Origin: a virus
DNA length: 33,517 bases
Virus record (IMG/VR): IMGVR_UViG_3300037241_000049
Location: 1 to 33,517 of that record
Direction: 5' to 3' (one strand)
Below are positions 4,275-22,395 of the stretch, one piece after another. Numbering within the stretch: position 1 is the stretch's first letter; each line of letters starts with the position of its first letter. The position numbers and the translations under genes are program-made. Below the pieces are notes generated by a model, which saw only the letters and a program-made list of their open reading frames with translations, was not told where the DNA came from and did not search any database.

Positions 4275-5768
4275 ATGTTGAAGATAAAAGCCTTGCTGCT
4301 CCTAATCATCGCCACGACTACAGCGTATGGGGGGACTGTCACCGGGACTTTGCAGGGACCCAGCGGCTTGCCGGTGAAGAATGGCACGCTGAACTTTGCG
4401 CTGCAGCAGGCCGGACTGATCGTAGGCACAGGCAGCGTGGTGCCCGCTACGGCATCGTGCTACACCTCGGCGGATGGCTCCGTCGTGGGTCTGCCCAACC
4501 CGCTGACGCTGCCTTCAGTGGCGATTACCTATGGCTCGGGCACGATGGCGGCGGGTATCTACTACGTCGTGTTCACGTTCTACGACAGCGCGAACAATCT
4601 AACGCTGGCCTCTCCAGAGCTGCAGGTTCAGCTCACCAACACGGGCTCGCTGATCTTTTCGCCTCCGGCGACGTTCCCGCCGAATGCCGTGGGCATGACC
4701 GTCTTTGCCGGCACGGTGAGCGGCGCGGAGACGGCGCAAGGAAACTCGACTGGCAGCAGCGGAACATTCGTTCAGAACGAAACGCCGGTCACCACGCTCA
4801 TCCCGATCCCGGCGGTCAATGCGACAGTCTGCTCCATCGCGTTCAACGATACGATCATTCCCTACTCCGGTTACAACGTCTCGCTGATTTCGTCGAGCGG
4901 GAATGCGTATCCAGGCTGGCCGCAGGCCTGGCAGCTCAATGGAGGTCTGAGCGGCACAGTCAATATCTCGAACGGTGCTCCGCTGTGGAATGGCACGACC
5001 ATCTACCCGCAGCCAATCCTTGCACAGCCGCTGAATCATGGCCCGCAAAGCATCTCGGGTTTGCTGAACATGACCGGCTACAACCTGCTGAACATAGGGG
5101 CGCTCGGCGTTGGCACGACCACGCCGGAGTGGCCCGTTGATGTCGAGAATGGGTACATCAACAGCAGCGGTGGGTATCTCTTCAACGGCGGCGCCGGCTC
5201 GACTGGGCAGTGCCTGGTGTCCAATGGCACGTACTTCGGACCCGGCAGTTGCGGGACGCTGCCGGCGATCTTCTACCAGGTGGTCCAGGGCAACGGCACT
5301 CTCTTCGCCCAACAGCCCCAGCTCAACTTTAGCGCCCGCTTCTCGCTCGCGAACGACGTCCCCTCCACCCGCACTGACGTTGACCTCGCCACCACCGCCG
5401 TCACGCCAGGTTCTTACACCAATTCCAGCGTGACGGTGGACGCCTATGGCCGGGTGACCGCAGCGACTTCGGGTCCGACAGTCCCAAACATCCAGCCCCT
5501 CATTATCAATTCAGGGATCTGCACCACAGCGGCTTCGGCGTTCGCCAGCTGCTCCTTCACGGTTAGCTGGCCAACCGCGTTCGCGGACGGCAATTACGCG
5601 CTGACCTGCACCTCGGGACCTGGCCAGGGCACAAATGCGGTGCTGCTGGGCCTCTTCGTGTCTAACCAGACGGCGACCACCTTCCAGATCACGCTGCAGA
5701 ATGCCGACTCCTCGGGCGCCGGGGCAACCACCGTCAACCAGATCAATTGCATCGGGGTCCATCCCTAA
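4275..5768 (+). CDS. Tail-fibre-like protein with Sec signal peptide
   Basis: A 497-residue protein. Residues 1-19 are a textbook signal peptide (KIK, then a run of Leu/Ile, ending TAYG). Residues 20-75 match the 'GTLQGPSGLPVKNGTLNFAL' start domain common in phage fibres. Residues 90-180 form a beta-sandwich like those at the end of the next gene and in the tail gene at the right edge (AAGIYYVVFTFYDSANNLTL). Around 365-400 comes the classic phage fibre motif TPGSYTNSSVTVDAYGRVTA. The last 90 residues form a compact beta domain with three Cys (C at about 415, 424 and the C-terminal NCIGVHP). It is probably a receptor-binding or minor tail protein. The signal peptide is unexpected for a virion protein assembled in the cytoplasm. 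It ends three bases before the next gene. Confidence 0.75.
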   Translation: MLKIKALLLLIIATTTAYGGTVTGTLQGPSGLPVKNGTLNFALQQAGLIVGTGSVVPATASCYTSADGSVVGLPNPLTLPSVAITYGSGTMAAGIYYVVFTFYDSANNLTLASPELQVQLTNTGSLIFSPPATFPPNAVGMTVFAGTVSGAETAQGNSTGSSGTFVQNETPVTTLIPIPAVNATVCSIAFNDTIIPYSGYNVSLISSSGNAYPGWPQAWQLNGGLSGTVNISNGAPLWNGTTIYPQPILAQPLNHGPQSISGLLNMTGYNLLNIGALGVGTTTPEWPVDVENGYINSSGGYLFNGGAGSTGQCLVSNGTYFGPGSCGTLPAIFYQVVQGNGTLFAQQPQLNFSARFSLANDVPSTRTDVDLATTAVTPGSYTNSSVTVDAYGRVTAATSGPTVPNIQPLIINSGICTTAASAFASCSFTVSWPTAFADGNYALTCTSGPGQGTNAVLLGLFVSNQTATTFQITLQNADSSGAGATTVNQINCIGVHP

Positions 5769-5771
5769 ACC

Positions 5772-8700
5772 ATGAAGAATCTTTTGGCGTTGCTCGCCAT
5801 TCTGTTGTGTGCCGCCAACGTCCAGGCACAGAACATCGAAGGCCAAATCATCGCGTCGCAGTATGGCACGTGGAAGGTTCCCGGGTATGCGCCGAATACC
5901 TATTCGTTTGCGCCAAATTCATGCCGGGTGGAGGGCGGCGCCAGCTTCTTCTTCGCCTTCGCCACCGGAACACCGGTCCAGATCGTGGACAGCAACCCAT
6001 CTGCAACCGAAACGGTGACACCCAGCGCGGTGGTCGACACCAACGTTACCTGCGCGATCAGCATCGCTCCTGTCAACGCGCACCAGCTTCCGTTCTATTT
6101 CACATCGGCGACCGGCGGGCTACAGGAAGCAATCAACCAAAACCTGACGACGCCACAAACCAACACCATCATCCTGGACAGCACGTTCTATCAGCTCGTG
6201 GGCGGTGCAACCAATGCCGCAGCGGTCATCGCCGCGGCGAAAGGCAGCGTTGCACTGGGACTGGTGGATGTAACCCAGGTGCCGACGATCTGGTACCGCT
6301 GGAATGGAGCACAGTATGTCGCCGTAAGCTCGGCGACCAGCGGCGGGACTACGCTCGTCAACGACATATTCTCGAATGGGCCCAGCAATGCGTGGCAGGA
6401 TCTCTTCGACTTCGTTGCCACTGGACCGGTGGTCTACAATCCCCAAGCTGCGGTCAACGCCGCCCAGACAAACAACGGCAGTGTAACCATCCAGCCCGGT
6501 GCCGGGCGCACGCCATTCACAAACACAGGCAACGTGCGCGTGGTCGATAACCGGAGCGATGTCCCGGCGACGGCCCGCAGCGCCACGGAGTTTGGGGCTA
6601 CATGCGACCTAAGAAGCGTCTACGGCACCTTAACGTCCGGCTCAGCCGTGGTGACTATCCTGGCTGGCTACAGTGCGCTGTTCAGTTCTGCCGACATAGG
6701 CCGCACGCTGGCCGCCGTTGGAGTGGTCTCGGGCACGCCGACCGCCTTTGAGACGACAATCCAGTCGATTACCGACAGCCAGCACGCTATCGTGACCACG
6801 CCGGCTCCGTTCACGCAAAGCACAGCGCACCAGATGGACCTGGGCCACGACGATACCGCAGCGATCGCCCAAGGGATGACGGAAGAGGCGGGAAATAATG
6901 GCGAGTTGGTCTTTCCTCAGGGCAATTGCCTGACCCATACGCAGACGCTGCTGGGACAGTCGATCCAGGGCCTCGGTTCCTCTTCTTTCGTCACCAACTT
7001 TCCCGGTGAAGATGTCTTCGCCGCTCCAGACCCAAGCCTCACGCAAGGCGTTAGTCAGGGCGGAGCCCACCTCCACGACTTCACGATCAATCTCGATGAC
7101 CGCATCGACGCCACGCAGGCCTGGCAGATCATCAACGACTCGGGCACAACATCGAAAGCGGCGATGTACCGGCCGATTGCGACCAACAGCGGCATCGCCA
7201 ACAATCCCGTCGCACCCGGCTGGTTTGTGGGTGGATTTAACGGCGCGGCCGCGATCACTGCGGCATCGGCCGTCATGTGCGTGCCGGCAACAGAGAGCGC
7301 GCCATCGGTAGGCCAGGAGGTCGTGTTTCCGTACCTTGCGAACGTCTTTACGGCCACCGTCTCATCGACAGCCGGAAGCTGCTCTGGCGGAGCAAGCCCG
7401 CGGACGCTCTCCTCGGCGCTGCCCTCGGGATCGACGAACAGCCAGGCGGAGTGGTTCGCCGGCAGCAGCCCCCAGACCATCAACGCCAATATCAGCGGAT
7501 CCGGCTGCCCAGCCTCGATCAGCCTGACCAATTCCATTTTGCCGGTTCCTTACTACGAGTCGAATGTTGCTCCCTTCGGGCTGATCCAGATCGACGGGGA
7601 GCAGTTCACGTACTTTGGCAAGACCAATGCCACCGGCAGCCTCTCGAGCAACTTGCTGACCATCACCGGCTGCGCGCAGAACGGCACCACACGCGCCGCG
7701 CACACTTCGGGCGCCACCGTAGTCCCCTTGAACCCCTTCAAGCCGGCGTATCCCTGGCCGGTGACGCCGACACTCAACGCGGGCGATACCACCCCTTCCG
7801 GGACGGCCGGCTACTACCCGGCGTGGAACGTGGGCAATACGGCCTTCGCCTTCCCCGTCGCCACCGGGATCAACGCGGGCACCGGGGCCACCGGATCGTG
7901 GACCACTGGCGCGGTGATCGAATCCATGACGATTCAGTCCTGGCCGATCGACATCAACCCGCCGCTGACCGGAGGCAATGCGGTGAACCATACCGCCGGG
8001 TTTTACTTTGTGCAATATCCGTACGCGGCAAGATTCCAACATCTCAACTTGAGCCAGTTGTTCTATGGCGTCACCGAGGGCGTGCCGTCGATCGAGAACG
8101 GCAACTGGTCGACGGCGCAGCCCACGGCAGACGGCGGGAGCTGGGAGAACGTGGCCATCCGGGCAGCAAATCCCTGGAACTTCGTGGCCGGGAACCAGAA
8201 CACGTTCAAAGACTTCAACGTGTACTCGAGCGAAGGATCGGCTTCAGGCACGGCGCTGGGCGCCAATACCTGCTACTACTTCACCGCGCCGCGCAACGAT
8301 CAGACGGGCACCCAGACTGAGCAGGCCTCGCTGGTCGACGCGACCAATCTCTACTGCGAGCCAGAGACGGGCGCGCACGCCGGCTCGATGCCCAATTGGG
8401 AGTGGGATATCGACTTGTCCGTGGTCCACGACATGCACATGGGCGGCGGAGGCGAAGTCTACGTCGGCGGAGCTGGACAGCACTGGATTGGCGGGAACTT
8501 CAACAACAGCGCCAACCTGCCGCTCATCAACTGGGGCCAGGGGAATACCTCCGACCTCTCTTCGACGCTGGGCACCGAACCCAAGAGCAATCGCTACGGC
8601 TCGAGCTCGCTGATCAACTGGAACTACAACAGCAAATTCTCGGGCACCACGGTGCAAGCCTTCGGCAACCCCGGCGGGCCTTATGGCCAGCTCCAGGTGG

Positions 8701-10499
8701 GCAACAGCCGGGAGCCCATCCCGGCGCAGACCAATGAGACCTTCAACACCGGCAACCTGACGGTGCCGTATGTCAGCTCGGGCGGCGGCTTCATCACCCC
8801 AGAGGAGTTCGACGCCAGCACCAGCTTTGACTCCCAGCCGATGAGCGCGGGCTGGACCTTCGACGACACCTCGCCGATCACCCACAGCTATACCGCCTGC
8901 AATGTGGGGACCAACCTGGGCACGACGTATTGCAACAGCTACCGCTTCAATAACAGCTCTATCCCCATCGGCCCGGGCCAGCGCCTGGTGCCCGGCAAGT
9001 ACACGCTTTACATGTCAATCAAGGACGTGACCGCGGCCACCAACACCGAGCGCTTCGTGGTTTATTCCAATTGCGGCGGGGTGACCGAGACGTATTCCGT
9101 GCCCGTGACGAATGCGTGGCCGACGACGCTCGCCGGCGTCTTCAGCACCGCCATCGACTTCACCGCGGCAACTGGATCGGGCTGCTACCTGGGGGTGCAA
9201 TTCAATGGCGCAACCACGGCGGATACAGTCGAGGTCGGATACCTCGATTTCGCACCCGTGGCCGAGAGCTTGAACGCGCAGACCATCAACGCGACCACGA
9301 TCAATCTGCCCAGCGGGACGACCGGCGGCACGGCGACCGGATGCCAGCAGTCGCCGGTAACCGGGATCAATAACGGCTTCACCTGCCCCACCAAGGGCTT
9401 TGGCACGGGGCTCAACGCCAACCAGGGCGCCAGCGATACCACCGCCACCCTGGTCACGACCAGTGGGCTTTCCACCCAGGGCTGCTTCTTCGTCGATGCC
9501 GAGTATGAGTGCTACACAGGCATCTCGGGCAACGTACTCACCGGGATTACGCGCGGAGAATACACCACCACCGCGACCACGCACAGTTCGGGCGCCGCAG
9601 TGGTCTCCGTCGATCTGGTGCTGGGAAGCATCCAGCAGGCGCCGGTTAACGTCATCGCCGCCGGGGCATCGACCCCCACCGTCTTTAGCGTCAATAACGG
9701 CTTCCCTTCGACCCACGACGGCACGTCGGTCATGGATGTAAACGGCGGGTCGAATGAGCTGTGGTTCGACAGCGGCGGCCACATCACACAAGTCAACACG
9801 TCGGGCACCAACGTCTTCTGGGCACCGGTCGCGATCGGCAGCAATGACAACCTGCCCATCACCAACACGCAGCTGGTGGTGCAGGACAATGGCCCCAACG
9901 AGGTTACCTCTCCGCTCGGCCTCGGTGCGGGCCATGCGGGCACGCTGAACGTGGTGCAGACGCCGACCATCGGCGCGCCCTCAGTCGTCAACTTCGCCAC
10001 CGGTGCGGGCTCGAACACCTACAGTTACGTGTGCGCCGGGACCGACTATGACGGCAACCTGATTAACGGGACCACTACCACCATCACTGGCGTTCCCACT
10101 GTCTTCGGCGGACCGAATCCCTTTATCGGCGTGAGTTGTCCCTGGTCGGCTGGAGTCTACAGCTTCCAGGTCTACCGCACCGCGGGCGGCCCAAACCAAG
10201 GGCTGATGAACTCTACTGTTGGGAACCCAGGCGGGTTCACCGACTTCAACGGCAACAGTTCAGGCGGCAGCCCGCCGGGCGCGAACGGATCGAACCCCAA
10301 GATCACGGTGCAAGGCACAGGCGTGCCCACGATTCAGTTGGGCACCACCAATATCGGCACGGGGACGGGCGCGCCGGGCACAACTTGCGGCACGACGCCG
10401 ATCGGCAACGGCTCGCTCTGGTTGCGGACGGATGGGACGGCGAGCACCTCGCTTTACGTCTGCGCAGCGGGGGCATGGACGGCGGTGACGGTCCCATGA
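5772..10499 (+). CDS. Giant tail-spike-like protein with signal peptide and shared N-terminal domain
   Basis: At 1575 residues this is the largest protein here. Residues 1-19 are a signal peptide with cleavage site VQA. Residues 20-186 are the domain shared with the spikes at 14288 and 19268 (starting QNIEGQI, with a Cys pair, TGGLQEAI, NTIILDS and GLVDVT). From about 270 begins a beta-helix-like body: EFGATCDL, a DIGRTL segment, DDTAAIAQGM and GELVFPQGNCLTHTQTLLGQ, as in pectate-lyase-fold tail spikes. Two 'IDGEQFTYFG...HTSGATVV' type modules lie at about 606-652 and 1241-1281. A beta-sandwich (about 1405-1500) and a short cap (NGSLWLRTDGTASTSLYVC) end the protein. The likely role is host surface polysaccharide recognition or depolymerisation; the catalytic residues cannot be picked out by eye. 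Its TGA overlaps the next ATG. Confidence 0.8.
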   Translation: MKNLLALLAILLCAANVQAQNIEGQIIASQYGTWKVPGYAPNTYSFAPNSCRVEGGASFFFAFATGTPVQIVDSNPSATETVTPSAVVDTNVTCAISIAPVNAHQLPFYFTSATGGLQEAINQNLTTPQTNTIILDSTFYQLVGGATNAAAVIAAAKGSVALGLVDVTQVPTIWYRWNGAQYVAVSSATSGGTTLVNDIFSNGPSNAWQDLFDFVATGPVVYNPQAAVNAAQTNNGSVTIQPGAGRTPFTNTGNVRVVDNRSDVPATARSATEFGATCDLRSVYGTLTSGSAVVTILAGYSALFSSADIGRTLAAVGVVSGTPTAFETTIQSITDSQHAIVTTPAPFTQSTAHQMDLGHDDTAAIAQGMTEEAGNNGELVFPQGNCLTHTQTLLGQSIQGLGSSSFVTNFPGEDVFAAPDPSLTQGVSQGGAHLHDFTINLDDRIDATQAWQIINDSGTTSKAAMYRPIATNSGIANNPVAPGWFVGGFNGAAAITAASAVMCVPATESAPSVGQEVVFPYLANVFTATVSSTAGSCSGGASPRTLSSALPSGSTNSQAEWFAGSSPQTINANISGSGCPASISLTNSILPVPYYESNVAPFGLIQIDGEQFTYFGKTNATGSLSSNLLTITGCAQNGTTRAAHTSGATVVPLNPFKPAYPWPVTPTLNAGDTTPSGTAGYYPAWNVGNTAFAFPVATGINAGTGATGSWTTGAVIESMTIQSWPIDINPPLTGGNAVNHTAGFYFVQYPYAARFQHLNLSQLFYGVTEGVPSIENGNWSTAQPTADGGSWENVAIRAANPWNFVAGNQNTFKDFNVYSSEGSASGTALGANTCYYFTAPRNDQTGTQTEQASLVDATNLYCEPETGAHAGSMPNWEWDIDLSVVHDMHMGGGGEVYVGGAGQHWIGGNFNNSANLPLINWGQGNTSDLSSTLGTEPKSNRYGSSSLINWNYNSKFSGTTVQAFGNPGGPYGQLQVGNSREPIPAQTNETFNTGNLTVPYVSSGGGFITPEEFDASTSFDSQPMSAGWTFDDTSPITHSYTACNVGTNLGTTYCNSYRFNNSSIPIGPGQRLVPGKYTLYMSIKDVTAATNTERFVVYSNCGGVTETYSVPVTNAWPTTLAGVFSTAIDFTAATGSGCYLGVQFNGATTADTVEVGYLDFAPVAESLNAQTINATTINLPSGTTGGTATGCQQSPVTGINNGFTCPTKGFGTGLNANQGASDTTATLVTTSGLSTQGCFFVDAEYECYTGISGNVLTGITRGEYTTTATTHSSGAAVVSVDLVLGSIQQAPVNVIAAGASTPTVFSVNNGFPSTHDGTSVMDVNGGSNELWFDSGGHITQVNTSGTNVFWAPVAIGSNDNLPITNTQLVVQDNGPNEVTSPLGLGAGHAGTLNVVQTPTIGAPSVVNFATGAGSNTYSYVCAGTDYDGNLINGTTTTITGVPTVFGGPNPFIGVSCPWSAGVYSFQVYRTAGGPNQGLMNSTVGNPGGFTDFNGNSSGGSPPGANGSNPKITVQGTGVPTIQLGTTNIGTGTGAPGTTCGTTPIGNGSLWLRTDGTASTSLYVCAAGAWTAVTVP

Positions 10500-10504
10500 G
10501 AAAG
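10485..10504 (+). repeat. Gene-junction repeat, copy 1
   Basis: The 20 bases spanning the ATGA stop/start overlap at the end of the giant spike gene match 16 of 20 positions at the next junction (11102-11121). Both read GACG(G/A)TCCCATGAG. The shared junction may record duplication of a signal-peptide-plus-domain unit. Confidence 0.45.
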
Positions 10505-11116
10505 CTCAAAGCCGCGATTCTCGCAGGAGTGCTCCTCATATTCGCGCTGCCGGCATACGCCGTCACCCTGACGAGCGCCTACGTGAGCAACCCGGGGCCG
10601 GTGAATGCCATGAACACCGGCGGCGCACTCCAGGTCTATGCCTATTGCAAATACTCGGATGGCTCGACCACCAACTGCTCAACCACGGATATCCATGGCA
10701 ATGCGGTCACGGCGTGGACAAGCTCGAACACCACAGTGGCCACGGTCAGCAGTTCCGGTTTGGTCAGCGGGGTCAGCATCGGAACCGCCACCATCAATGC
10801 GACGATTACCGGAGGAGTAGCAGGTACCCCGCCGTTCGTGGTCACGGTTAGCGGGCCGAACACCCTGGGGCTCAGTTCACTTACCTTGGCGACCACCGGG
10901 GGTGTCACCTCGATATCCGCCGGGACGACCAACCAGCTCATCGCGACCTGCACGTACTCGGATGGTTCGACCACCAATTGCACCACGACCGATATTCATG
11001 GAAGCGCGGCGAGTTCCTTTACCAGCTCGGCGCCGACGGTCGCTACGGTGAGCTCGAGCGGCCTGGTCACCGGCGTGGGCGCAGGGTCGACGACATTCAG
11101 GGCGACGATCCCATGA
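10496..11116 (+). CDS. Secreted stand-alone Big-2-like (Ig-fold) two-repeat protein
   Basis: A 206-residue protein beginning at ATG 10496 in an ATGA overlap. Residues 1-22 are a signal peptide (cleavage AYA). Two tandem bacterial Ig-like (Big-2) repeats follow, each with a C-x9-C pair in YSDGSTTNC, a (D)IHG(N/S)A turn, TVATVSSSGLV and a G(V/A)...AT end. Repeat 1 covers about 23-120 and repeat 2 about 124-206. Both align with the C-terminal part of the next protein. Such domains mediate adhesion or act as spacers in surface proteins and phage tails. The second repeat stops early (FRATIP) compared with the homologous copy. It looks like a duplicated, free-standing copy of its neighbour's adhesion module. 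Confidence 0.75.
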   Translation: MRKLKAAILAGVLLIFALPAYAVTLTSAYVSNPGPVNAMNTGGALQVYAYCKYSDGSTTNCSTTDIHGNAVTAWTSSNTTVATVSSSGLVSGVSIGTATINATITGGVAGTPPFVVTVSGPNTLGLSSLTLATTGGVTSISAGTTNQLIATCTYSDGSTTNCTTTDIHGSAASSFTSSAPTVATVSSSGLVTGVGAGSTTFRATIP

Positions 11117-11121
11117 GGAAT
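11102..11121 (+). repeat. Gene-junction repeat, copy 2
   Basis: This is the second copy of the 20-base junction sequence (16/20 matches to 10485-10504). It spans the TGA of the Big-2-like gene and the ATG of the next secreted gene. Confidence 0.45.
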
Positions 11122-13266
11122 GTGAACAGGATCATTCTTCTGTCGCTCTTTTGGTTCACGGCAGTGACTTACGGACAGGTAACTGCCACTCCTGTCTTCA
11201 CGCTGCCGACCGGCACATACACCATGCCAACGAGCACGACGATCACGGATTCGACGACGGGAGCATCCATTCTCTGGTGCTTTACGGGGAGCGGCACATG
11301 CACCCCGGCCACAGCTTATTCAGGCTCCATTTATGTTGACCCGGCAGCGGTGGATATCTTGTGCGCGAACGCGACTGCTTCTGGCTTTTCGCAGAGTCCG
11401 ACCATCTGCGCTACTTACACGGCGGCCAGCTCGAACGTGGCTGCCCCTCCGACGTTCTCGCCCGCCGCAGGCTCCTACTCGGGAACGAGGTCAGTCACGC
11501 TATCCACGACTACGGCGGGAGCGAACATCTATTACACGACGGACGGCTCGACGCCGGATTACACTTCCACGCTCTACGCGGGGCCAATTCTGGTCTCTTC
11601 GAGCGCCACGCTCAAGGCGATCGCGGGCTTTGTCTACAGCTCCACGGCGGGGACGGGATCCTCTCTCTACGAGACCAGCACCATCGCGCAGAGCACCGGG
11701 ACCGGCCCGGCAAGCAATTGGAAAAAGCCCGACTGCCAGAGTCCGGGCACATCGTTTTGTACCTCCGACAACCCTGGAGGCTCGGGTGTTCCGGCCTCGG
11801 CGAATAATCCGCAAGGGAGTCCCACCGGACTGGTTGGGTGTCCCGCCGGCCATCCGGGCGCGGCCGCGAACTGCATGACCTTCTCGCAGACGCCGGCGAC
11901 GACGTCGCAGACCAATGTGCTGTGGCCGCGCTCGGGCGGATTTTCCAGCAGCGCCGCCGTGCCCACCTATGTGTTGGCCGATTTCTGGGTACTTTACCCT
12001 ACCAGCAACGGAGCGAATTTTACCTGCGAGAACGACTCGCAGATTTTTGATCCCAGCGAGAATATCAACTGGCAGTGGGGCAACCAGGTTACGGGTTGCG
12101 TGACCAACTCGCCCGTTTGGGATGTGGGAGGAACCTCCAACACGTCCTGGATCGCCGCGGGGATAACGCCTCTGCTCAACGGCAACACCTGGCATCACAT
12201 CCGAAAGCTCGACTGGAGAAACCCGGCGGAGGGCAAAATTTGCAGCTCGGGAGGAACCTCGTACTACTGCGAGCACTACGGGCATTGGATCATTGACGGC
12301 GTTTCCTTCAACATGCAGGCCTCCGGCATGTGCGCGGGGCGGCCTTCCGGAAGTGGGCAGACAGCCTCGCCGCCGACCACCGGATGCACCATCACCACGG
12401 ACACGCTCGAGGCCGGCTTTGGGGCCAACGCAACCGACCAACACCAAGAGGATACCCACGGGGCCACGTCCCAGGTAAGCGGCACTTTCGACGCCGGAAC
12501 CTTCACCGCGTTCTACGACCCTTCCGCCGTGGCAACCGCGGCATACACGATCAGTAACCTTACGGCCAGCGTGCCCCTCACGGTGACGACAGCTACTCCC
12601 ACGCTGGTGAGCGCCTACCTCACTACGCCCGGCAGCGTAAACACCATGACGGTCGGCGGAACGCTGCAATTCTCGGCCTTCTGCCACTACTCGAGCGGCC
12701 CCGATCTGAATTGCACGGTGGCCGACATTTACGGGGACGCGGTGACCGTGTGGTCGAGCTCGAACACAGCCTTGGCGACCGTCGGCGCGGTGGGCTCGGC
12801 AAACCCCGGCCTGGTGAGAGCGGTGGCGGGCGGAGCGCCCACCATCCAGGCGACCATCGGCAGTACCGTCACGCCGGCCTTTGGGCTGACCCTCTCGGGT
12901 CCCGCTGTAACTCTCACGGGGTTGCATCTCGCCACCACCGGCGGAGTTACAGGCCTGTTTGTGGGCAGCACAAACCAGCTCGTCGCCACCTGCATTTATT
13001 CCGACAGCTCGACGACCAATTGCACCTCGACAGATAGTCATGGCAACGTGGCTTCTTCCTATGCCAGCTCAGTGACCGGCTACGCGACGGTGAACGCGAC
13101 CACCGGACTGGTTACGGGCGTTGCCGCCGGCACCACCAACCTGACGGCCCACGCCGGCAGCTTTACCAGCCCTAACCTCGGCCTCACGGTCGTGGGCGTG
13201 CCTTCTGGGGTCTACTCGATCACGATTATCGGTCCAGTGCAATTCTCGGGGACGGTGACGTTCTAA
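11113..13266 (+). CDS. Secreted multidomain adhesin/fibre: chitobiase-like repeats, lectin-like domain, Big-2 repeats
   Basis: A 717-residue protein from ATG 11113 (ATGA overlap; the open frame extends upstream but into the previous gene). The signal peptide is about 1-21. Two CHB_HEX_C-type repeats follow at about 24-102 and 110-190; the second has PTFSPAAGSYSGTRSVTLST and IYYTTDGSTPDY. Residues 200-470 are Trp- and Cys-rich with WHHIRKLDWRNPAEG and YCEHYGHWIIDGVSF, resembling concanavalin-like lectin domains of secreted acidobacterial proteins. Two Big-2-like repeats (about 495-700) are paralogous to the preceding gene. This composition is that of a carbohydrate-binding surface protein and could be a receptor-binding virion component or an exported adhesin. 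No catalytic site is seen. It ends in a TAATG overlap with the next gene. Confidence 0.75.
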   Translation: MRNVNRIILLSLFWFTAVTYGQVTATPVFTLPTGTYTMPTSTTITDSTTGASILWCFTGSGTCTPATAYSGSIYVDPAAVDILCANATASGFSQSPTICATYTAASSNVAAPPTFSPAAGSYSGTRSVTLSTTTAGANIYYTTDGSTPDYTSTLYAGPILVSSSATLKAIAGFVYSSTAGTGSSLYETSTIAQSTGTGPASNWKKPDCQSPGTSFCTSDNPGGSGVPASANNPQGSPTGLVGCPAGHPGAAANCMTFSQTPATTSQTNVLWPRSGGFSSSAAVPTYVLADFWVLYPTSNGANFTCENDSQIFDPSENINWQWGNQVTGCVTNSPVWDVGGTSNTSWIAAGITPLLNGNTWHHIRKLDWRNPAEGKICSSGGTSYYCEHYGHWIIDGVSFNMQASGMCAGRPSGSGQTASPPTTGCTITTDTLEAGFGANATDQHQEDTHGATSQVSGTFDAGTFTAFYDPSAVATAAYTISNLTASVPLTVTTATPTLVSAYLTTPGSVNTMTVGGTLQFSAFCHYSSGPDLNCTVADIYGDAVTVWSSSNTALATVGAVGSANPGLVRAVAGGAPTIQATIGSTVTPAFGLTLSGPAVTLTGLHLATTGGVTGLFVGSTNQLVATCIYSDSSTTNCTSTDSHGNVASSYASSVTGYATVNATTGLVTGVAAGTTNLTAHAGSFTSPNLGLTVVGVPSGVYSITIIGPVQFSGTVTF

Positions 13267-14287: not shown

Positions 14288-17200
14288 ATGCGCAGAGTAA
14301 GACGTTGCCGTTTGTGGGCGCTTCTTCTTTTGGCCCTCTCGACGTTGCCATTCTGCGACCGCGTCCAGGCGCAGAATGTTGAAGGTCAAATCGTCGCCGC
14401 GCAGTTTGGCGAATTCCAGGTACCTGCGATGGGTGATGGTTTCAAGTTTCCGCCGGCGACCTGTCAGGTGAGCGGAGGCGGCCGGAACTTTAATGCATTC
14501 GCTATGGGAGCCCCCATCAAGATCGTCGATAGTGATCCGAGCCTGACCGAGATCGCAACTCCAGTCGCAGTGTTTATCGACTCTTGCGCTGTCAGTCTGC
14601 CGACGATATATAGCCATGAGTCGTTCTATCTTACTTCGGGAACCGGCGGTCTGCAGGAGGCACTTACCAACGGGATCGACCGCGGCGGCGGGCCGAATAC
14701 CATCATCCTGAATGCGGAATGGTACACGCTGGTTGCCCCATCGAGCCCGTCCGCGGTTATCGCTTCGGTACACGGCAATACCAATCTTGGCCTGGTGGAC
14801 GTCACCACCACGCCGTACACCTCTTATGCCTGGAATGGCTCGCAGTACGTGCAAAACGCTACCGGTGGAGGCGCCAGCACTCCAGCCACATCGAACGTAT
14901 TGAAAGGTGCAGGAGTAGCGAACTCAGTCGCAGCAGCGACTCCGGGAACCGACTATGTGATCCCCAGCGGGAACGTTGCCACAGCCACAGCGCTTGCCGG
15001 AGCCTCGGCAATCCCCAACGGCAGCACAGCGACCACGCAGGGTTCAGGAGACAACACAGCAAAGATCGCCACCGATCTCTTTGTGCTCAATAATGCCCTT
15101 ACCGCCTCGTCGATCCCTGCAACCAGCGATCTGCTTAAGGGCAGTGGAACAGCCGGCAGTGCATCCGTCGCTACGCCAAATACGGACTATCTCACGCCAA
15201 GCTACTGGGGCGGGCTCACGGGTTGCGGTACAGCAGGCTATGCGTTTTCTCCGCAAGCGGGTGGGTGCATCGCATCCGGAGGCGCCAGCACTCCAGCCAC
15301 CAACTTGGTGCTCAAGGGCAGTGGCAGCGCAAATGGGGTGGTGGCGGCGACGGCGGGCACGGATTACCTCGATCCAGCACTAACAACACTCCAAACGCTC
15401 AGCGGCCCTCTGGCAGTAAAGGCGATCAACGGCATATCCCACTCCGAGCTTTACACCGGAGCAACGGTCGATGTCCGCGTCAACGCTTGCCTTAGCGATG
15501 CCCTGAACGGCACCAATGGAAATACGTCACTACTTTGTGACAGCAGTGGAGAGTCAGGAAATCAAACAATTGCCGCCACTATTGTGATTGGCGACAACAA
15601 CAACGATAAGGTCGGCTTGATCCTTCCGTGTGGTGTGTACTGGACCGGATCGATGACTAACACCACTCCAGTTGTCGAGCAGTACGCAGGAACGACAGTT
15701 ACGAGTAACTGCGCCTCGAATGGCCCCCAAATGCAGTTCACAACGAATAGCTCATCGAATCCGAGCGTCATATACGAGATCGTGAGCGGCACCAGTCTGA
15801 ACTACCCTTACGTTTACGACCACGGCTTTCAAATCACAAACGATGGTGGCGGCGGTCATGCGACTTCTACGGGAGTCGGCTTCCTGCTGACTGGGCAGAT
15901 TGCAGACGCCTCGGTTCTCGATGCAGTGAATGTTTTCGATAATCTCGATGCTTATCCAGCAGAGATCTACGGAGCCTGTTGCCAAACGACGTGGACCCAT
16001 AGCTCAATTAATGCTGGCTTTTATGGCACGCCGCTCTTAATTCAGACTGACAGCGGCAACTTTACGCGAGACTTCACTTTTAGCAACGGAACCATCGTTC
16101 ATCCGGGGGCCGGGAACTCTGCAGTTTTCTGCAACGACACGCGAAACTCGACCGTCTCAAGCTTCGCCTTAGACCACGTCTACACGGAAACAGGGGAGAG
16201 CAGTAATCCAGCAGCAATCTATTTGATCAACGGATGCACCAGGGCGAGCATTTCTCACATTACCCTTCCCCAGTACGGACATGCCGGATTTCCTGCTGTC
16301 TCGATCACCAGTGCTTACAACACCATGGCAGTCGTGGACGATATCTGGTTTACCTACGGGTCCGGACCATGGACATATCCCAACCCGGCCGTCGTAAATG
16401 CTTACACCGGCCAATCAGTCAATTCTGACAGCAATGGCTACTTTGCCCACTACAACACACCAACTGCTACGACGACTCTAGGAGATTCAACCACTTTAGG
16501 TGACCTTGCATATGCTGGAGCTTCAGGCGTGGCAGCTCGCTTGCCAGGCAATGCCGCGGCTACCGACGAAGTGTTGGTGTCGCATGGGAGCGGAGCAATC
16601 TCGACTCCAACGACAAAGACCTGCGCCCATTTCACAACAAGCGGAACTACTTCCACTTGCACCTGGAGCACCGCCCCAGCCATCGGAGAGTTTGTTGCCA
16701 TTGGTGTCTATAACTACACCGGTGGCGCGACTCTCTCGGTAACTGATTCAGCGAGCAATGTCTATACAGCAGTCGCAGCTTCTTATAACCCCCCGGATAT
16801 CGTAGGTCAGACCCAGCTCTTTTACTTCGGCCCTCTTGCATCGTCCATAACCACGACAACGGTTACCAGTTCGAGTAGCAGTAGTGGATTGGTGATACTA
16901 GGGGATACGGCCACAGGCGTTGCCTCGTCTTACCCTGTTGACGGAGCCCCTTGCTATGCTGATACCATCGCTGTAACTTCAAGCCCATGTTCCACCGCGA
17001 TCACCACAACCTCTGCCAATGATTACCTATTTTGTGCCGCCCAAAACGAGACGGGAGCAGACGACTTTACGGCAGGCGCAGGATTTACGGCAGGCGCAGC
17101 AGCAGGAGGCGCTAATTCTCTCGCGCAGTACAAAGTTCAATCTGCAGTGGGGGCCATAACTCCTGCTATTACAAGTAGCTCTGCCAGTCCTATGACAATG

Positions 17201-17557
17201 ACTTGTGCGGCTTTCAAGCCGGCGTTATCAACGAATGCGCCCACGCTCAGCAACTCGCCTGCGCTGAACACGGCCAACATGTTTGCCGGGGGAACGACCT
17301 TTACGGCCAGCGGATGCAACAACAGCACCCTGGTGGGTGGAGCGACGGCAGGTTCCTACGATTCGGGCACCTCGGGCACATGCACGGTAGTGCTTACGAC
17401 CGGAGTCACTGCTCCTCATGGCTATGCCTGCACGGCCAACGATTTGACTACAACTGCGGATACGATTAAGCAAACCGCTAGCAGCCAGACTACAGCAACG
17501 CTTTCTGGAACCACGGCCTCTGGCGATGTCATCAGCTTCGCTTGTACGCCGTACTAA
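14288..17557 (+). CDS. Tail-spike-like protein with signal peptide and shared N-terminal domain
   Basis: A 1089-residue protein. ATG 14288 gives an Arg-rich signal peptide (1-28, cleavage VQA) like its paralogues. GTG 14138 is in frame but would add residues encoded by an intergenic hairpin repeat. Residues 29-194 are the shared spike domain. Residues 198-362 hold three copies of the phage fibre motif 'LKGxGxA...GTDY'. Residues 365-760 are a beta-helix-like body. Residues 776-975 (VTDSASNVYTAVAASYNP, LFYFGPLASSITTTTVTSSS, MTCAAFKP) resemble a domain frequent in secreted acidobacterial proteins. The last 115 residues form a Cys-rich beta cap. The middle is visibly less GC-rich than neighbouring genes (two hand-counted 60-base lines gave 29/60 against 38/60 in the giant spike), suggesting a separately acquired receptor-binding body. 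Confidence 0.8.
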   Translation: MRRVRRCRLWALLLLALSTLPFCDRVQAQNVEGQIVAAQFGEFQVPAMGDGFKFPPATCQVSGGGRNFNAFAMGAPIKIVDSDPSLTEIATPVAVFIDSCAVSLPTIYSHESFYLTSGTGGLQEALTNGIDRGGGPNTIILNAEWYTLVAPSSPSAVIASVHGNTNLGLVDVTTTPYTSYAWNGSQYVQNATGGGASTPATSNVLKGAGVANSVAAATPGTDYVIPSGNVATATALAGASAIPNGSTATTQGSGDNTAKIATDLFVLNNALTASSIPATSDLLKGSGTAGSASVATPNTDYLTPSYWGGLTGCGTAGYAFSPQAGGCIASGGASTPATNLVLKGSGSANGVVAATAGTDYLDPALTTLQTLSGPLAVKAINGISHSELYTGATVDVRVNACLSDALNGTNGNTSLLCDSSGESGNQTIAATIVIGDNNNDKVGLILPCGVYWTGSMTNTTPVVEQYAGTTVTSNCASNGPQMQFTTNSSSNPSVIYEIVSGTSLNYPYVYDHGFQITNDGGGGHATSTGVGFLLTGQIADASVLDAVNVFDNLDAYPAEIYGACCQTTWTHSSINAGFYGTPLLIQTDSGNFTRDFTFSNGTIVHPGAGNSAVFCNDTRNSTVSSFALDHVYTETGESSNPAAIYLINGCTRASISHITLPQYGHAGFPAVSITSAYNTMAVVDDIWFTYGSGPWTYPNPAVVNAYTGQSVNSDSNGYFAHYNTPTATTTLGDSTTLGDLAYAGASGVAARLPGNAAATDEVLVSHGSGAISTPTTKTCAHFTTSGTTSTCTWSTAPAIGEFVAIGVYNYTGGATLSVTDSASNVYTAVAASYNPPDIVGQTQLFYFGPLASSITTTTVTSSSSSSGLVILGDTATGVASSYPVDGAPCYADTIAVTSSPCSTAITTTSANDYLFCAAQNETGADDFTAGAGFTAGAAAGGANSLAQYKVQSAVGAITPAITSSSASPMTMTCAAFKPALSTNAPTLSNSPALNTANMFAGGTTFTASGCNNSTLVGGATAGSYDSGTSGTCTVVLTTGVTAPHGYACTANDLTTTADTIKQTASSQTTATLSGTTASGDVISFACTPY
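14867..14889 (+). repeat. 23-base direct repeat inside spike gene, copy 1
   Basis: A 23-base sequence beginning GGAGGCGCCAGCAC is repeated exactly at 15278-15300, 411 bases downstream in the same reading frame. It encodes GGASTPAT at the start of the fibre-type LKGxG repeats. Confidence 0.8.
15278..15300 (+). repeat. 23-base direct repeat inside spike gene, copy 2
   Basis: Exact second copy of 14867-14889, marking the start of the third LKGxG unit. The two copies could recombine to delete or add fibre repeats in frame (411 is divisible by 3). Confidence 0.8.
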
Positions 17558-17576: not shown

Positions 17577-17804
17577 ATGAACAATCTCAAGGTATGGATT
17601 CACGGCTTGGCAGCGGCTGCTATTTCGGCCTTTGCCTCGGCGGCTAGCGGCGCAATCGCGCTGCCTAGCGTATTTACGTTCGACAGGGCGGGGTTTGTCA
17701 ATATGGTCAAGCTGGCTACTGTGCCGGCATTGCTGGCAGTATTTGCTTATCTGAAAAGTAGCCCGGTGCCGACGTTGACCACCACCATGGTTAAAGGTCA
17801 ATAA
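17577..17804 (+). CDS. Small two-TM membrane protein, holin candidate
   Basis: A 75-residue protein starting at ATG 17577 behind a strong GAGGAGG ribosome binding site; an upstream in-frame ATG (17526) lies inside the spike gene and is rejected. Residues 8-30 (GLAAAAISAFASAASGAIAL) and about 42-60 (MVKLATVPALLAVFAYLKSS) are hydrophobic helices, with a short polar tail. Size and topology suit a phage holin, and the endolysin lies 3.4 kb upstream. Similar short membrane proteins occur in many phage structural clusters without tested function. Confidence 0.6.
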   Translation: MNNLKVWIHGLAAAAISAFASAASGAIALPSVFTFDRAGFVNMVKLATVPALLAVFAYLKSSPVPTLTTTMVKGQ

Positions 17805-18365: not shown

Positions 18366-18704
18366 ATGGCCCTCTGGCTCTCGTGCCTGATCCACGGCGT
18401 GATGCTGCTGCTTATCTCGGGATGCTCAGCGCATCGGCCCGTCGCCGTGCGCGTCCTCCCCGATGCTGAGATCTCAGACGCCAGAGATTTCGTGGTGGCG
18501 GTGGCAGACAAGCTGCCAATGTGGGACGCCGACGCTATCTCGAGGTACGAACAGGTGGAGATTGCCACGGTTAAGGCCGATATCGCGATGGCGCAACAGG
18601 ACGACAAAAAAAGCTCATTCCTCGAGGATGTGACCAAGCTACATGACGACTGGGATGCGCTGGTCGCACTCGACGAGATGCTAAAGAAGGAGTCCCTCAT
18701 ATGA
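18366..18704 (+). CDS. Lipoprotein, possible spanin-type lysis protein
   Basis: A 112-residue protein with a hydrophobic N-terminus and a lipobox LISGC, so Cys20 would be acylated after signal peptidase II cleavage. The mature part has a beta-strand-like start (RPVAVRVLPDAE) and then charged helices (WDADAISRYEQVEIATVKAD). An outer-membrane lipoprotein in a phage lysis/tail region recalls Rz1-type spanins. However, it is not Pro-rich and no inner-membrane partner overlaps it. Superinfection exclusion is another possibility. The gene ends in an ATGA overlap with the next. Confidence 0.6.
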   Translation: MALWLSCLIHGVMLLLISGCSAHRPVAVRVLPDAEISDARDFVVAVADKLPMWDADAISRYEQVEIATVKADIAMAQQDDKKSSFLEDVTKLHDDWDALVALDEMLKKESLI

Positions 18705-18885: not shown

Positions 18886-19251
18886 ATGGCCCACACACGA
18901 TTGATTACGCTGAACGGCAGTGCCGGCGCGTTTGTCGCCGTCTCTGCAACCCAAGTGACCCGGCGGGTCGAGATCATCGAAGACGGCAGCGCGAATGGCG
19001 GAACTGGCCAGGGCATCGCGTACCAGTTCAACGATGGCTCAGCCACACCATTCACCACTACATACACGATCGAGCCACAGTCCGAGCCGATTTTGCTCGG
19101 CACACCAGTCCCTCAAGGCGGAGGATATGGGATAGTGATCGGTACGCCGCCGGATAATTCGGGAGGGTATACCATCGCTGCGACACTGCTTATCAACCTA
19201 AGGTCGGCAAGCACGAACACAACGATCGTCCGGGTGACGGAATTCGACTAA
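18886..19251 (+). CDS. Hypothetical beta-rich protein, 121 aa, minor structural candidate
   Basis: The start ATG 18886 lies three bases after the previous stop, with GAAAGG upstream. The protein is almost entirely strand-like, rich in Thr/Gly, with no Cys, no signal peptide and no transmembrane segment: RRVEIIEDGSANGGTGQGIA near 23-42 and GGYTIAATLLINLRSAS near 94-110. Such a composition is typical of small capsid-decoration or tail accessory proteins. It differs from the flanking spike genes in lacking an export signal. No family is recognised. Confidence 0.55.
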   Translation: MAHTRLITLNGSAGAFVAVSATQVTRRVEIIEDGSANGGTGQGIAYQFNDGSATPFTTTYTIEPQSEPILLGTPVPQGGGYGIVIGTPPDNSGGYTIAATLLINLRSASTNTTIVRVTEFD

Positions 19252-19267
19252 GGCAATCACTCACTTT

Positions 19268-21934
19268 ATGAAGAAAGCACTGTTGGTGGTTCTCGCCCTC
19301 GTTCCCTGTTTCCCCCACGTCCAGGCGCAGAACATTGAAGGCCAGATAATCGCCGCGCAGTACGGCGAATTCGAGGTACCTGGCACGGCGATCGGAGGGT
19401 TTGTCTTCCTGCCTGCGACTTGCCGGGTTACCGGCGGTGGGAAGAGCTTCTCCGCCTTCGCGACCGGGGTGCCGATCAAGATTGTTGACGGCAACCCGAG
19501 CCTCACCGAAATTGCCACGCCGAGTTCGGTGTACATCAACGTCTGCTCGGTCAACATGGCGACGGCGAATGTCCACGAGCCGCCTTACTACCTCACCTCC
19601 GGGACAGGGGGGCTGCAAGAGGCGATTACCGCCAACCAGACGAGTACCGGCATCAACTCGATCATCCTCAACTCGGAGTGGTACCGGGAAGTGCTGCCAG
19701 GCAATGCGGCCAATGTCATTGCGTCCGTGCATGGCATCGCATCGCTGGGACTGGTGGATGTGACCACCACACCATACACCTATTACACCTGGACCGGGTC
19801 ACAGTATACGGTGAACAATCCGACGGCCGGCAGCCTTAGTTACAACCAGGGAGGAACCGGCGCGGTGACGCGCAGCAGCACCGCGAAGTGGCAAGACTCT
19901 CTATCAATCAAAGACTTTGGTGCGCTGGGCAACGGCTCGTCCATGGCGGCCGACACGGCGGGTTTGCAGAATGCCGTCGCGGCGGCCAACATCCAAGGCA
20001 AAGCGGTCTACATCCCGGCCGGCAATTACCTGCTCGACAACAGCGACGGCCCGGTTATCTCCGGGGGCAACAACGTAGTCATTTGGGGCGATGGGCCATC
20101 GTCTTCCCTTGCCTGCCAGACCACCGGAGGTCCGGACTGCATCGCGTCAACGGGCGCGACCGGCTTTGGCCTGCAGAATCTTTCTATTGCCTTTGGACCG
20201 ACAGCCACAGAACGATCCAGCGGCTACGCAGTGGACATCGAGACGTGCAACACCTGTACCCTCGACGGGGTGACGCTGAACAACGGCGACCTGAGCGGCC
20301 TCAGGTTGGCGAGCTCGGTGCGTACCTCGATCCACAACCTGCAAGTGTCGAACTTCTTCGCCAACGGCACCTTCCTGATTAACGACCAGGATCTGCGCGT
20401 GGACGGCCTGGCCTGCGCAAACAACGAGGATGCGTGCCTGGAAACCTCATGGTACGACTCGGAGTATACGGCGCACGCGGTTCCCTGCCAGGACATCACG
20501 GCGACCAACATCACCAGTGCTAATGATCTTGAGGCGGTACTCGTCAACTCCTGCAATAACGTCACCGTGACGGGTTTCTCTGCGGTGGGCAGCGCCAAGG
20601 AAGCAGTCTTTGTCGGTCAGGATCCCACCACGACCACCGCACAATGGCCAGACCGGGTGAGCATCTCGAACGGATCCATCTACGGGTCTGGTTACGGCAG
20701 CAACCCGCTCAACTCCGCCGCCGCACAGGCACTCTACATCAACGTAGGCACCAGCCCGGGCGGCTTCATCTCGCACCTCGCCTTTTCTAACATCGTGGCC
20801 ACGCACATCAGCTCGTGGGGCCTGCAGATGGCGGAGCTGCAAAACGACGATGTGCAGGCAAGCAACCTGACCTTTAATGACATTGGTAATGGAAACTCGG
20901 CTGGTTGCGTGCAGACAGAAGGCAACCAAGTCAACCTCGACAATATCGCCTGCTCGAACATCGGCACCTACGCCTTTTATGACACCAATACCAACCGGCT
21001 CACGGGCACGGGCTGGACGGCGAGTGGCTCCAACCAGGTGGGCGCCGGGACCGAGGCAGTCTTTCTTTCACCCACCGCGGTCGGATTTGTAAACGTCGCC
21101 GGCATTTCGCTGAACGACACCAACGGCAGCGTTTTTTCCAGCGCGGTCTACGATGACACGACCACGGGCGATCACATCCTGGTCAACATCAAGAGTTCGG
21201 GCATCGTAGCCCCCACTGGGCCGACCAGCGCGAACCAAGGCACGACGTACACCTACGCCGATCCAACCCACTCCTGGATCTTTCGGAATGGGGGGATGAT
21301 TATGTCCTTCCTGCCGCCCGACGTGTACCTGCTGCCTACCGCCGGCGCGACCGCGGGGTCTTATGTCAACGGATCCACCTTCTGGTGGCAGAGCAAGTGC
21401 TGGACAAGTTCGCAGCAAACCGAGAGCGTTGCGTGGCTCGATCTCTATCCCACATTGAGCACCGAGTCTTTTGCCTTTGCGCACACCGGAGGCTGCGGGT
21501 TTCCTATCACGCTCGATGTGACTGCAGCCGCTTCGATGCTGGGCAACATCTTTACTGGCACCATCATCAGCGGCCAGCACTTCAGTGGCCTAGCCAGCTC
21601 GGCACCGACGGCAGCGGCCGGGGCCGGCGCCGGTACCGGTCCTACAATTTCGCTCAACGCGAACTCTAATGACCTGTCTGGCTATCTCAGCGTCACCACC
21701 GGATCTTCGCCGACGGCAATCGCAATCGTAGCAACGCTCACCTTTGGCACCGCGTACGCAACGCTGCCCAAGTGCTTGCTCGCGGCTGCAAACGCAGCCG
21801 CCTCCGCGCTTAGCGGCGCTGCCAACGTTTACATTCCGCTGACTTCATCTGAGTCGGCCTTCACTGTCAACTCAAACACCACTGCTCTTGCCGCATCGAC
21901 GCTTTACACCTGGGGGTACACATGCACGCAGTAA
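19268..21934 (+). CDS. Tail-spike-like protein with signal peptide, shared N-terminal domain and pectate-lyase-type beta-helix
   Basis: An 888-residue protein. The signal peptide is 1-20 (cleavage VQA). Residues 21-187 are the shared spike domain. Residues 190-260 carry the classic phage spike entry: SLSYNQGGTGAVTRSSTAKW, then SIKDFGALGNGSS, a D-T-A-G-L-Q-N-A-V helix and VYIPAGNYLL. A long right-handed beta-helix follows (repeated short strands with NN, CNNVTV, DNIACSN) to about 620. Residues 780-888 are a cap domain duplicated as the next gene. It most likely binds or degrades host surface polysaccharide; catalytic acids cannot be assigned by eye. The start has only a weak, distant AAGG. The gene overlaps the next one by 13 bases. 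Confidence 0.8.
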   Translation: MKKALLVVLALVPCFPHVQAQNIEGQIIAAQYGEFEVPGTAIGGFVFLPATCRVTGGGKSFSAFATGVPIKIVDGNPSLTEIATPSSVYINVCSVNMATANVHEPPYYLTSGTGGLQEAITANQTSTGINSIILNSEWYREVLPGNAANVIASVHGIASLGLVDVTTTPYTYYTWTGSQYTVNNPTAGSLSYNQGGTGAVTRSSTAKWQDSLSIKDFGALGNGSSMAADTAGLQNAVAAANIQGKAVYIPAGNYLLDNSDGPVISGGNNVVIWGDGPSSSLACQTTGGPDCIASTGATGFGLQNLSIAFGPTATERSSGYAVDIETCNTCTLDGVTLNNGDLSGLRLASSVRTSIHNLQVSNFFANGTFLINDQDLRVDGLACANNEDACLETSWYDSEYTAHAVPCQDITATNITSANDLEAVLVNSCNNVTVTGFSAVGSAKEAVFVGQDPTTTTAQWPDRVSISNGSIYGSGYGSNPLNSAAAQALYINVGTSPGGFISHLAFSNIVATHISSWGLQMAELQNDDVQASNLTFNDIGNGNSAGCVQTEGNQVNLDNIACSNIGTYAFYDTNTNRLTGTGWTASGSNQVGAGTEAVFLSPTAVGFVNVAGISLNDTNGSVFSSAVYDDTTTGDHILVNIKSSGIVAPTGPTSANQGTTYTYADPTHSWIFRNGGMIMSFLPPDVYLLPTAGATAGSYVNGSTFWWQSKCWTSSQQTESVAWLDLYPTLSTESFAFAHTGGCGFPITLDVTAAASMLGNIFTGTIISGQHFSGLASSAPTAAAGAGAGTGPTISLNANSNDLSGYLSVTTGSSPTAIAIVATLTFGTAYATLPKCLLAAANAAASALSGAANVYIPLTSSESAFTVNSNTTALAASTLYTWGYTCTQ

Positions 21935-22395
21935 GGCACTGCTGTCAATACGCGGTTTTGCTCTCTGCGGTGGCCGGCATCGCCGTGGCGCAGCAGACAG
22001 GGAGCAATGGTGCGCCCGGAACCTCCTCGGTCCATGTTGGGGTTCGTGCTGCCGCCATCCCAACCATTGCGGCCGGCGTGGGAGCCGGCACCGCACCAGG
22101 CGCGGTAACCATTGTCGCCGGTTCAACCGATCTGTCTGGGACCATCACCATCGGCACCGGGACGTCACCGACGGCCTTCGGAGTCGTCGCGACCATCACG
22201 TTCAATGTGCCTTACACCGGCACCGTCCCGCATTGCATTCTTTATCCGGTCACCACCAACGCTGCACAGTTAGGGGCTGGGCCGGTCTTTCTGCCGCTGA
22301 GCGCCATCACGCTCACCGGGTTCAACATCAATTCCACCACGCCCGCTTTGGCCGCATCGACAACTTACTCATGGGAATACATCTGCACGCAGTAG
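21922..22395 (+). CDS. Secreted stand-alone copy of the spike C-terminal cap
   Basis: A 157-residue protein starting at ATG 21922 inside the end of the spike gene, five bases after GGGGG. Residues 1-23 are a signal peptide (cleavage AVA). Residues 47-157 align along their whole length with the last 109 residues of the preceding spike: PTIAAGVGAGT versus PTAAAGAGAGT, TDLSGTITI versus NDLSGYLSV, PTAFGVVATITF versus PTAIAIVATLTF, LAASTTYSWEYICTQ versus LAASTLYTWGYTCTQ. It is therefore a free cap module with its own export signal. It may trimerise with, compete with or chaperone the spike, or be a separate adhesin. No enzyme motif is seen. Confidence 0.75.
   Translation: MHAVRHCCQYAVLLSAVAGIAVAQQTGSNGAPGTSSVHVGVRAAAIPTIAAGVGAGTAPGAVTIVAGSTDLSGTITIGTGTSPTAFGVVATITFNVPYTGTVPHCILYPVTTNAAQLGAGPVFLPLSAITLTGFNINSTTPALAASTTYSWEYICTQ

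Follow-up and report, generated by a model that had tools for sequence, protein, structure and literature searches.

Predicted Sec signal peptides on the spike proteins of a podovirus-like phage group of soil Acidobacteria

Why would the spike and fibre genes of a tailed phage encode export signals, if tail fibres are, in the textbook view, cytoplasmic proteins added before lysis? The question is raised by the IMG/VR record IMGVR_UViG_3300037241_000049, a 33.5-kb viral record of a podovirus-like phage (33,517 nucleotides, the whole of which we call the window), in which a primosomal protein and a sigma factor are followed by a spike cluster interleaved with lysis genes and then by portal, scaffold-like protein, capsid and tail genes. 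Most of the large spike and fibre genes of this phage and its relatives were found to carry a conserved predicted Sec signal peptide, and the portal, capsid, tail and endolysin genes were found to lack one. Sec export of the spikes, taken alone, is a prediction that we hold with high confidence. The longer chain is less likely than export alone and has in our estimate about an even chance. In it the cluster would supply a tailed, podovirus-like Acidobacteriaceae phage with spikes for receptor binding and depolymerisation, which would be exported by Sec, stabilised by disulfides and loaded on the virion outside the cytoplasm. In this phage group of soil Acidobacteria, most spikes thus probably mature and harden in a different compartment from the one in which the rest of the virus is built.

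Signal peptides on the spike genes of the window and its relatives

A sequence-only reading of the window had assigned Sec signal peptides to seven genes, named here by their start positions (4275, 5772, 10496, 11113, 14288, 19268 and 21922). All seven were located at these coordinates and were positive, from the starts which that reading had chosen, in a rule-based caller (not SignalP) that evaluates the charge of the n-region, the hydrophobic core and the -3/-1 site. In its calibration on E. coli K-12, the caller picked out 15 of 17 exported proteins, along with 1 of 40 soluble cytoplasmic proteins and 3 of 18 from the membrane. Shuffled N-termini (60 residues, a single start each) gave 27 positives in 2105, a rate that is not like-for-like with the many-starts scan of homologues described below, for which the fair control is the set of 96 genes from the same contigs. 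A charged n-region, a hydrophobic core and small -3/-1 residues were present in all seven proteins; translocation and cleavage themselves are predicted.

Three of the exported proteins (5772, 14288 and 19268) share a domain of about 170 amino acids (aa) directly after the cleavage site, hereafter the N-domain. The search profile (A3, 17 rows) was built from the mature part of this domain alone, so the search was unable to select for signal peptides. It matched 54 loci on 51 contigs of the viral collection, some of them known from earlier scans, at identities down to 26%. The N-domain was present in 16 of the 21 records of the first scans, with four copies in the genome G015, the other five being fragments of 5-17 kb, and in all 32 further records with up to three copies each. 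Upstream of the matches the charged start, the hydrophobic core and an A-x-A/Q-like site (a slash marks cleavage) recur, with the cleavage residues kept and the cores diverged. In a many-starts search, 62 of the 67 distinct 5'-complete homologues were Sec-positive. The mature-domain family of 4275 gave 22 rule-positive homologues of 31. By the same alternative-start search, none of 96 control genes from the same contigs was positive (portal 0/20, capsid 0/14, tail B 0/10, the 29446 family 0/16, tail A 0/12, 30239 0/5, 18886 0/12 and endolysin 0/7). The contigs were found through the N-domain, window proteins or the capsid, so these counts do not describe a random sample of phages. Tail or fibre proteins and their neighbours from Kuttervirus SH19, podovirus ctn9Y15, crAss001 and N4, chosen from annotation, were negative in 21 of 21 cases. 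The phages collection gave no match for the window capsid, the window portal or an N-domain query from L114. In one spike (L070, in G011) an LILSGC motif lies ahead of the N-domain, possibly a lipoprotein signal and not a signal peptidase I site.

Whole genomes gave the same picture. Seven genomes of 65-72 kb were used from eleven gene-called sequences (the others being the window and G001, both fragments, G022 with bacterial flanks, and G045), with rough gene calls; G015, G036, G037 and G038 have exact terminal overlaps and are apparently complete, and G028, G033 and G027 are of similar length. Among cluster genes of at least 200 aa, 34 of 42 were signal-positive, against 9 of 321 genes elsewhere, the nine having been counted without case-by-case inspection. 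With small genes included the cluster gave 41 positives in 100 (Fisher P about 7e-21 against the same 9 of 321, the genes not being independent). G015, with 69,310 bases and ends that overlap by 127 bases and thus apparently complete, keeps the gene order of the window and carries an extra signal-bearing spike immediately after the capsid gene, outside the cluster.

The seven exported proteins of the window differ widely in size and domain content. The first is a fibre protein of 497 aa (4275..5768, +), with the signal peptide MLKIKALLLLIIATTTAYG/G (AYG/G) and a mature-domain family that is found in other phages, mostly with signal peptides too. It is followed by a spike of 1575 aa (5772..10499, +; signal peptide end VQA/QNIEGQ), in which a long variable part succeeds the N-domain, and by a Big-2 Ig-like protein of 206 aa (10496..11116, +; signal peptide end AYA/V; Pfam PF02368, 3.3e-12), in whose repeats the C-x9-C spacing claimed by the sequence-only reading is visible. 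The protein of 717 aa (11113..13266, +) combines CHB_HEX_C_1/Fn3-associated and Big-2 domains with the signal peptide MRNVNRIILLSLFWFTAVTYG/Q; here the rule chooses VTA/T as the cleavage site, and by eye TYG/Q is just as plausible. The second spike has 1089 aa (14288..17557, +; signal peptide end RVQA/QNVEG) and conserved ends around a middle of about 775 aa that is replaced among relatives. The tailspike of 888 aa (19268..21934, +; signal peptide MKKALLVVLALVPCFPHVQA/Q, VQA/Q) consists of the N-domain (19328..19867, +; near-invariant Cys pair at mature residues 32 and 73), a predicted pectate-lyase-like beta-helix and a C-terminal domain, and it matched PF12708 (7.8e-12), the tail spike family phrog_1171 (1e-5) and a Kuttervirus tailspike. 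That C-terminal domain recurs as a free-standing exported protein of 157 aa (21922..22395, +; signal peptide end AVA/Q) with 48% identity to residues 763-888 of 19268. In the Pfam scan 4275, 5772 and 14288 had no match, and among the spikes PF12708 was found in 19268 only, in the putative beta-helical body; an NCBIfam scan of nine proteins gave nothing close to a cut-off. The start regions of 14288 and 21922 (gtacacATGCGCAGAGTAAGACGTTGC and gtacacATGCACGCAGTAAGGCACTGC) are strikingly similar in otherwise different proteins, which suggests a duplicated start and signal cassette.

Cultured phages, late gene order and host

The trait recurs in phages in culture. Tunturi_1 and Tunturi_2 (PMC11924767) are, like the window group, phages of Acidobacteriaceae; they are podoviruses of Tunturiibacter, of about 63 kb, with a spike block that carries signal peptides and a raised Cys content. 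Unlike the window, neither showed an N-domain in its first 50 kb at E values up to 1, and over the same 50 kb a search with 24 window proteins gave no match at E 0.01. For these two phages and Tunturi_4 the first 50 kb were read, Tunturi_5 was left out, and coding sequences (45 plus 15) were chosen from annotation. In Tunturi_1, 5 of 19 were signal-positive, namely gp12, gp13, gp14 (annotated tail spike), gp16 and gp17 (annotated virion structural protein), and its portal, capsid, scaffold and tail genes gave no positive; in Tunturi_2, 4 of 8 were positive (gp12, gp13, gp14 and gp17). Tunturi_3, a podovirus of the same host strain, had none in 18 tested genes, and Tunturi_4 none in 15. Tunturi_3, searched whole with the window proteins, gave one weak tail-protein match. 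Tunturi_1 and Tunturi_2, with the trait, and Tunturi_3, without it as far as tested, share one host strain, so the trait looks borne by the phage lineage and not imposed by the host. A single contig related to Tunturi_1 by its capsid (L190, + strand read) has rule-positive frames at 13409 and 16968 in its spike region; a third frame there (14647-17112) is hydrophobic and was not called, and an additional positive at 2948 overlaps a longer open reading frame. In the source, PMC11924767, proteomics is mentioned as future work and the term 'signal peptide' is absent from the main text.

The spike cluster sits in the structural and late module of a tailed phage, as indicated by its synteny with portal, major capsid protein and tail genes in relatives, some of the names being positional. 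Neighbouring genes overlap within it: 5772, 10496 and 11113 by 4 bases each, 11113 and 13266 by 1 base, and 19268 and 21922 by 13 bases. The lysis genes include a small holin-like protein of XhlA type (13266..13637, +; PF10779 at E 8e-4, below the cut-off), in which no signal peptide was seen, and an endolysin (13638..14141, +; GH108-like and PG_binding_3; phrog_315, 5e-19) without one. A small hydrophobic protein of 75 aa (17577..17804, +), absent from the list of the sequence-only reading, is a further rule-positive; it has a second hydrophobic stretch and is probably a membrane protein, with a putative holin-like role. The lipoprotein proposed at 18366..18704 (+; 112 aa) does contain the lipobox LISGC, but it fails the rule and has no net positive charge ahead of the core. 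Its relatives in G022 (MALRLSC...VSGC) and G015 (MTKRLAF...LTGC) pass, and its position near the lysis genes would fit a spanin-like role. Within the spike cluster lies a non-exported protein of 121 aa (18886..19251, +), conserved across the group and possibly a docking or decoration protein; from a 22-sequence alignment it was predicted to be a jelly-roll or cupin-like beta-sandwich (predicted local distance difference test score, pLDDT, 91.4). As evidence for a docking adaptor this fold, with a best structural Z of 7.6, proved uninformative. Two genes after 21922 comes the portal protein (22914..25436, +), named from position, length and the synteny of relatives with no library match, and then the major capsid protein (27197..28480, +; weak match to phrog_14242 at E 0.0042, and relatives). 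More generally, the names portal, scaffold and tail-tube were taken from position and relatives, the libraries having given no match for these three. A GT2-like glycosyltransferase gene (28634-29449) separates the capsid gene of the window from the 29446 gene; the same place in G015 (21370-24279) is occupied by an exported spike.

An acidobacterial host, which the sequence-only reading had presumed, finds support in a contig of Acidobacteriaceae that contains a related copy. The 87-kb contig PLZN01000357, from a metagenome-assembled genome (MAG), holds a close relative of the window (capsid 100%, portal 96%, other structural proteins 92-98% identical). Its phage block (L146-L150) extends from about 26.9 to 69-72 kb between bacterial genes, with an OMP_b-brl_4 receptor, a PIG-L protein and an amino-acid permease on the left and SRAP, a short-chain dehydrogenase and ROK on the right. 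Altogether the N-domain was found at four genome loci in three MAGs, all labelled Acidobacteria or Acidobacteriaceae. No tyrosine integrase match was found on PLZN01000357. Near the right edge of its phage block lies a short DnaB-like helicase gene (272 aa) similar to phage genes of G027, G028 and G033.

A putative assembly route and its alternatives

The conserved Cys pair that had been noticed in the shared spike domain holds across the family: both cysteines are kept in 61 of the 62 rows of alignment A4, 46 rows have exactly two Cys, and no other N-domain column has Cys in more than 5 rows. Joint conservation of this kind would be expected from a structural disulfide, here a putative one. 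Over the seven genomes, Cys makes up on average 1.83% of the 34 signal-bearing spikes and 1.00% of the 141 remaining proteins with 200 aa or more (P about 3e-8). The core of the sequence-only reading, namely export signals on phage fibre and spike proteins that fold in an oxidising compartment, is supported by the homologues, the controls, the Cys pair and the cultured phage pair. One of the spikes also looks modular. When 14288 is aligned with its counterpart in G022, similarity is confined to residues 1-227 (80.6%) and to the final 88 (54%) with nothing detectable between, whereas 5772 and 19268 are 90% and 95% identical to G022 throughout. The comparison with G004 gave the same kept ends and replaced middle, and that with G003 likewise plus one 35-aa match. 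Receptor-binding proteins on which host-range selection acts show this pattern, a conserved N-terminal part with an exchangeable distal module, and the N-domain would be the putative virion anchor.

From these features a route can be proposed. The spikes would be expressed late, cross the inner membrane unfolded via Sec and lose the signal peptide to signal peptidase I; in the periplasm they would fold, oxidise and probably trimerise. Once holin and endolysin open the cell the spikes would be released, and most likely, though this is unproven, the conserved N-domain docks on the tails of virions assembled in the cytoplasm. In vitro, completed P22 particles accept tailspikes that are supplied later, which makes such docking after membrane opening feasible. 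Completion of the tail apparatus would thereby take place beyond the cytoplasm, where oxidising conditions yield disulfide-stabilised spikes.

Several points weigh against this route. We know of no tailed phage that loads its spikes after lysis in vivo; the presence of the spikes on virions is inferred from sequence, and Sec export separates them from cytoplasmic tail assembly. The large non-exported tail protein 32274 (987 aa in G022, 1004 aa in G015) could be the receptor-binding protein. Docking also lacks support from the fold: the AlphaFold model of the N-domain is confident (pLDDT 90.8), but Foldseek against PDB and BFVD gave no match at E 0.001 or better (best E 0.038; best VIA Z 8.0), the top rows mixing phage tail and capsule-lyase chains with unrelated beta-barrels so that no membership was drawn, and the profile gave a single row against PDB sequences (E 0.54). 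Neither structure nor sequence linked the N-domain with confidence to the P22-type head-binding domain. Signal calls are incomplete as well. Five N-domain rows were not called, all signal- or lipoprotein-like by eye, nor were nine 4275-domain rows, of which two are partial and seven are hydrophobic by eye (among these seven, L098, L124 and L138 have no nearby ATG). Eight of the 42 large cluster genes were not called either: G015 1-3000 belongs to a signal-bearing gene whose end has been cut, G037 3651 lies on the opposite strand, G037 8324 and G036 24886 have a visibly hydrophobic N-terminus, and G028 22139, G036 10664, G038 9501 and G038 17841 appear to lack one. Finally, at least one start-type codon follows the scored core in 24 of the 62 positive N-domain homologues (ATG in 8), where a later start is possible.

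The sequence-only reading had listed three meanings for the exported cluster, of which spikes added outside the cytoplasm and secreted depolymerases are both tenable, sequence alone being unable to tell them apart. The main alternative, possible if less probable than the route above, is that the exported proteins never reach the virion and act as free depolymerases, lectins or adhesins, which might dissolve surface polymers of the host or its neighbours, help virions escape from debris or serve as decoys, the virion receptor-binding protein being the non-exported 32274 or another gene. Sec export alone would predict this, the beta-helix, Big-2 and CHB_HEX_C_1 domains of the cluster occur also in secreted enzymes and adhesins, and 32274 homologues were found in 10 of 10 relatives compared. 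However, the conserved ends and replaced middle of 14288 resemble a virion anchor with a specificity module, and the comparable genes of Tunturi_1 were annotated by their depositors as tail spike and virion structural protein (annotation, not proteomics). No other fibre-like gene was recognised, a weak argument as most non-exported genes of the relatives are unannotated.

The third meaning, lysogen-displayed adhesins, fits least, because the cluster seemingly forms one late operon with lysis and structural genes, which its own genes overlap or alternate with. Surface proteins expressed from a prophage, coating the host and altering adhesion or blocking superinfection, would agree with the phage block in the Acidobacteriaceae contig and with the tyrosine integrase found in 8 of 20 related records, including the apparently complete G036 and G037. 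Such proteins are nevertheless unlikely here: the genes interlock with those of the holin-like protein and endolysin and end two genes before the portal, and 12 of the 20 records, including the apparently complete G015 and G038, gave no tyrosine integrase match and none a resolvase match. The lifestyle may differ within the group.

Slightly less probable again is inefficient or regulated export, by which part of the spike pool stays in the cytoplasm, or starts internally, and joins the tails in that compartment. Phage structural proteins with a cleaved pre-sequence are known, and the 24 homologues with a start-type codon after the core would permit it. In the other 38 of 62, the window spikes included, no ATG, GTG or TTG lies between core and domain, which excludes a start past the signal; a cytoplasmic fold would moreover need neither Sec-type features nor an almost invariant Cys pair. 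An artefact, in which starts were misplaced, N-termini were hydrophobic by chance or host genes contaminated the set, is conceivable given the many spurious frames of high-GC DNA and a rule-based caller in place of SignalP. It is very improbable in view of the controls from the same contigs, none of which was positive when many starts were searched in the same way, of homologues with identities of about 30% and of the repetition of the trait in separately cultured phages.

Returning to spikes loaded outside the cytoplasm, we suggest tentatively, at somewhat less than even chances, that tailed phages of Acidobacteriota, in two or more lineages that are unrelated in sequence, build heads and tail tubes in the cytoplasm and the receptor-binding apparatus in the oxidising periplasm, through the host Sec and disulfide pathways, with final assembly at the membrane breach. 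If true, tailed double-stranded DNA phages would have an assembly pathway that had not been recognised before, perhaps favoured in harsh acidic soils because disulfides harden the spikes. Were the receptor-binding proteins exported, it would become testable where and when a tailed virion turns infectious, how its spikes escape premature contact with polymers of the envelope and how a phage uses the Sec and disulfide enzymes. For soil viromes there is a caution, in that signal-bearing 'auxiliary' glycan-active genes may be receptor-binding proteins.

Comparison with known systems

Among tailed phages, the closest likeness is to the tailspikes of Kuttervirus (Ackermannviridae) and of P22 type, which share with the window several adjacent spikes and, as predicted there, a beta-helix body (in 19268) and an anchor with a swappable module. 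Residues 182-351 of 19268 (mostly 182-255) match Kuttervirus-type tailspikes at 32-44% identity, a match that leaves the window N-domain and its Cys pair uncovered. No signal peptide was scored on TSP1-3 of Kuttervirus PhiSH19, whereas most spikes of the window group have a predicted one.

Virion proteins with Sec signal peptides are known from Inovirus, whose coat proteins, such as pIII and pVIII, enter the inner membrane and join the particle while it is extruded. The window, in contrast, belongs to a tailed phage with soluble-looking spikes and an endolysin gene, and Inovirus-like release without lysis genes does not apply to it. Phage lysis proteins such as SAR endolysins and spanins also use Sec, and the window likewise has the lipoprotein 18366 near its lysis genes. 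Unlike lysis proteins, however, the window spikes are fibre-like proteins of 157-1575 aa with cleavable-type signals, and the endolysin family of the window is without them.

In the open PubMed Central literature, among the matches listed, no title or start of an abstract described spikes of tailed phages with signal peptides; this scope did not extend to preprints or subscription journals. One or two signal peptides are counted in two Bacteroides phages in PMC5723332, in a portion that does not name the proteins, and an excerpt of PMC8951688 places a signal peptide on an endolysin. Taken singly, the window proteins are tailspike-like; what is new, as far as these searches reach, is the lineage-wide predicted Sec export of most spikes in tailed phages.

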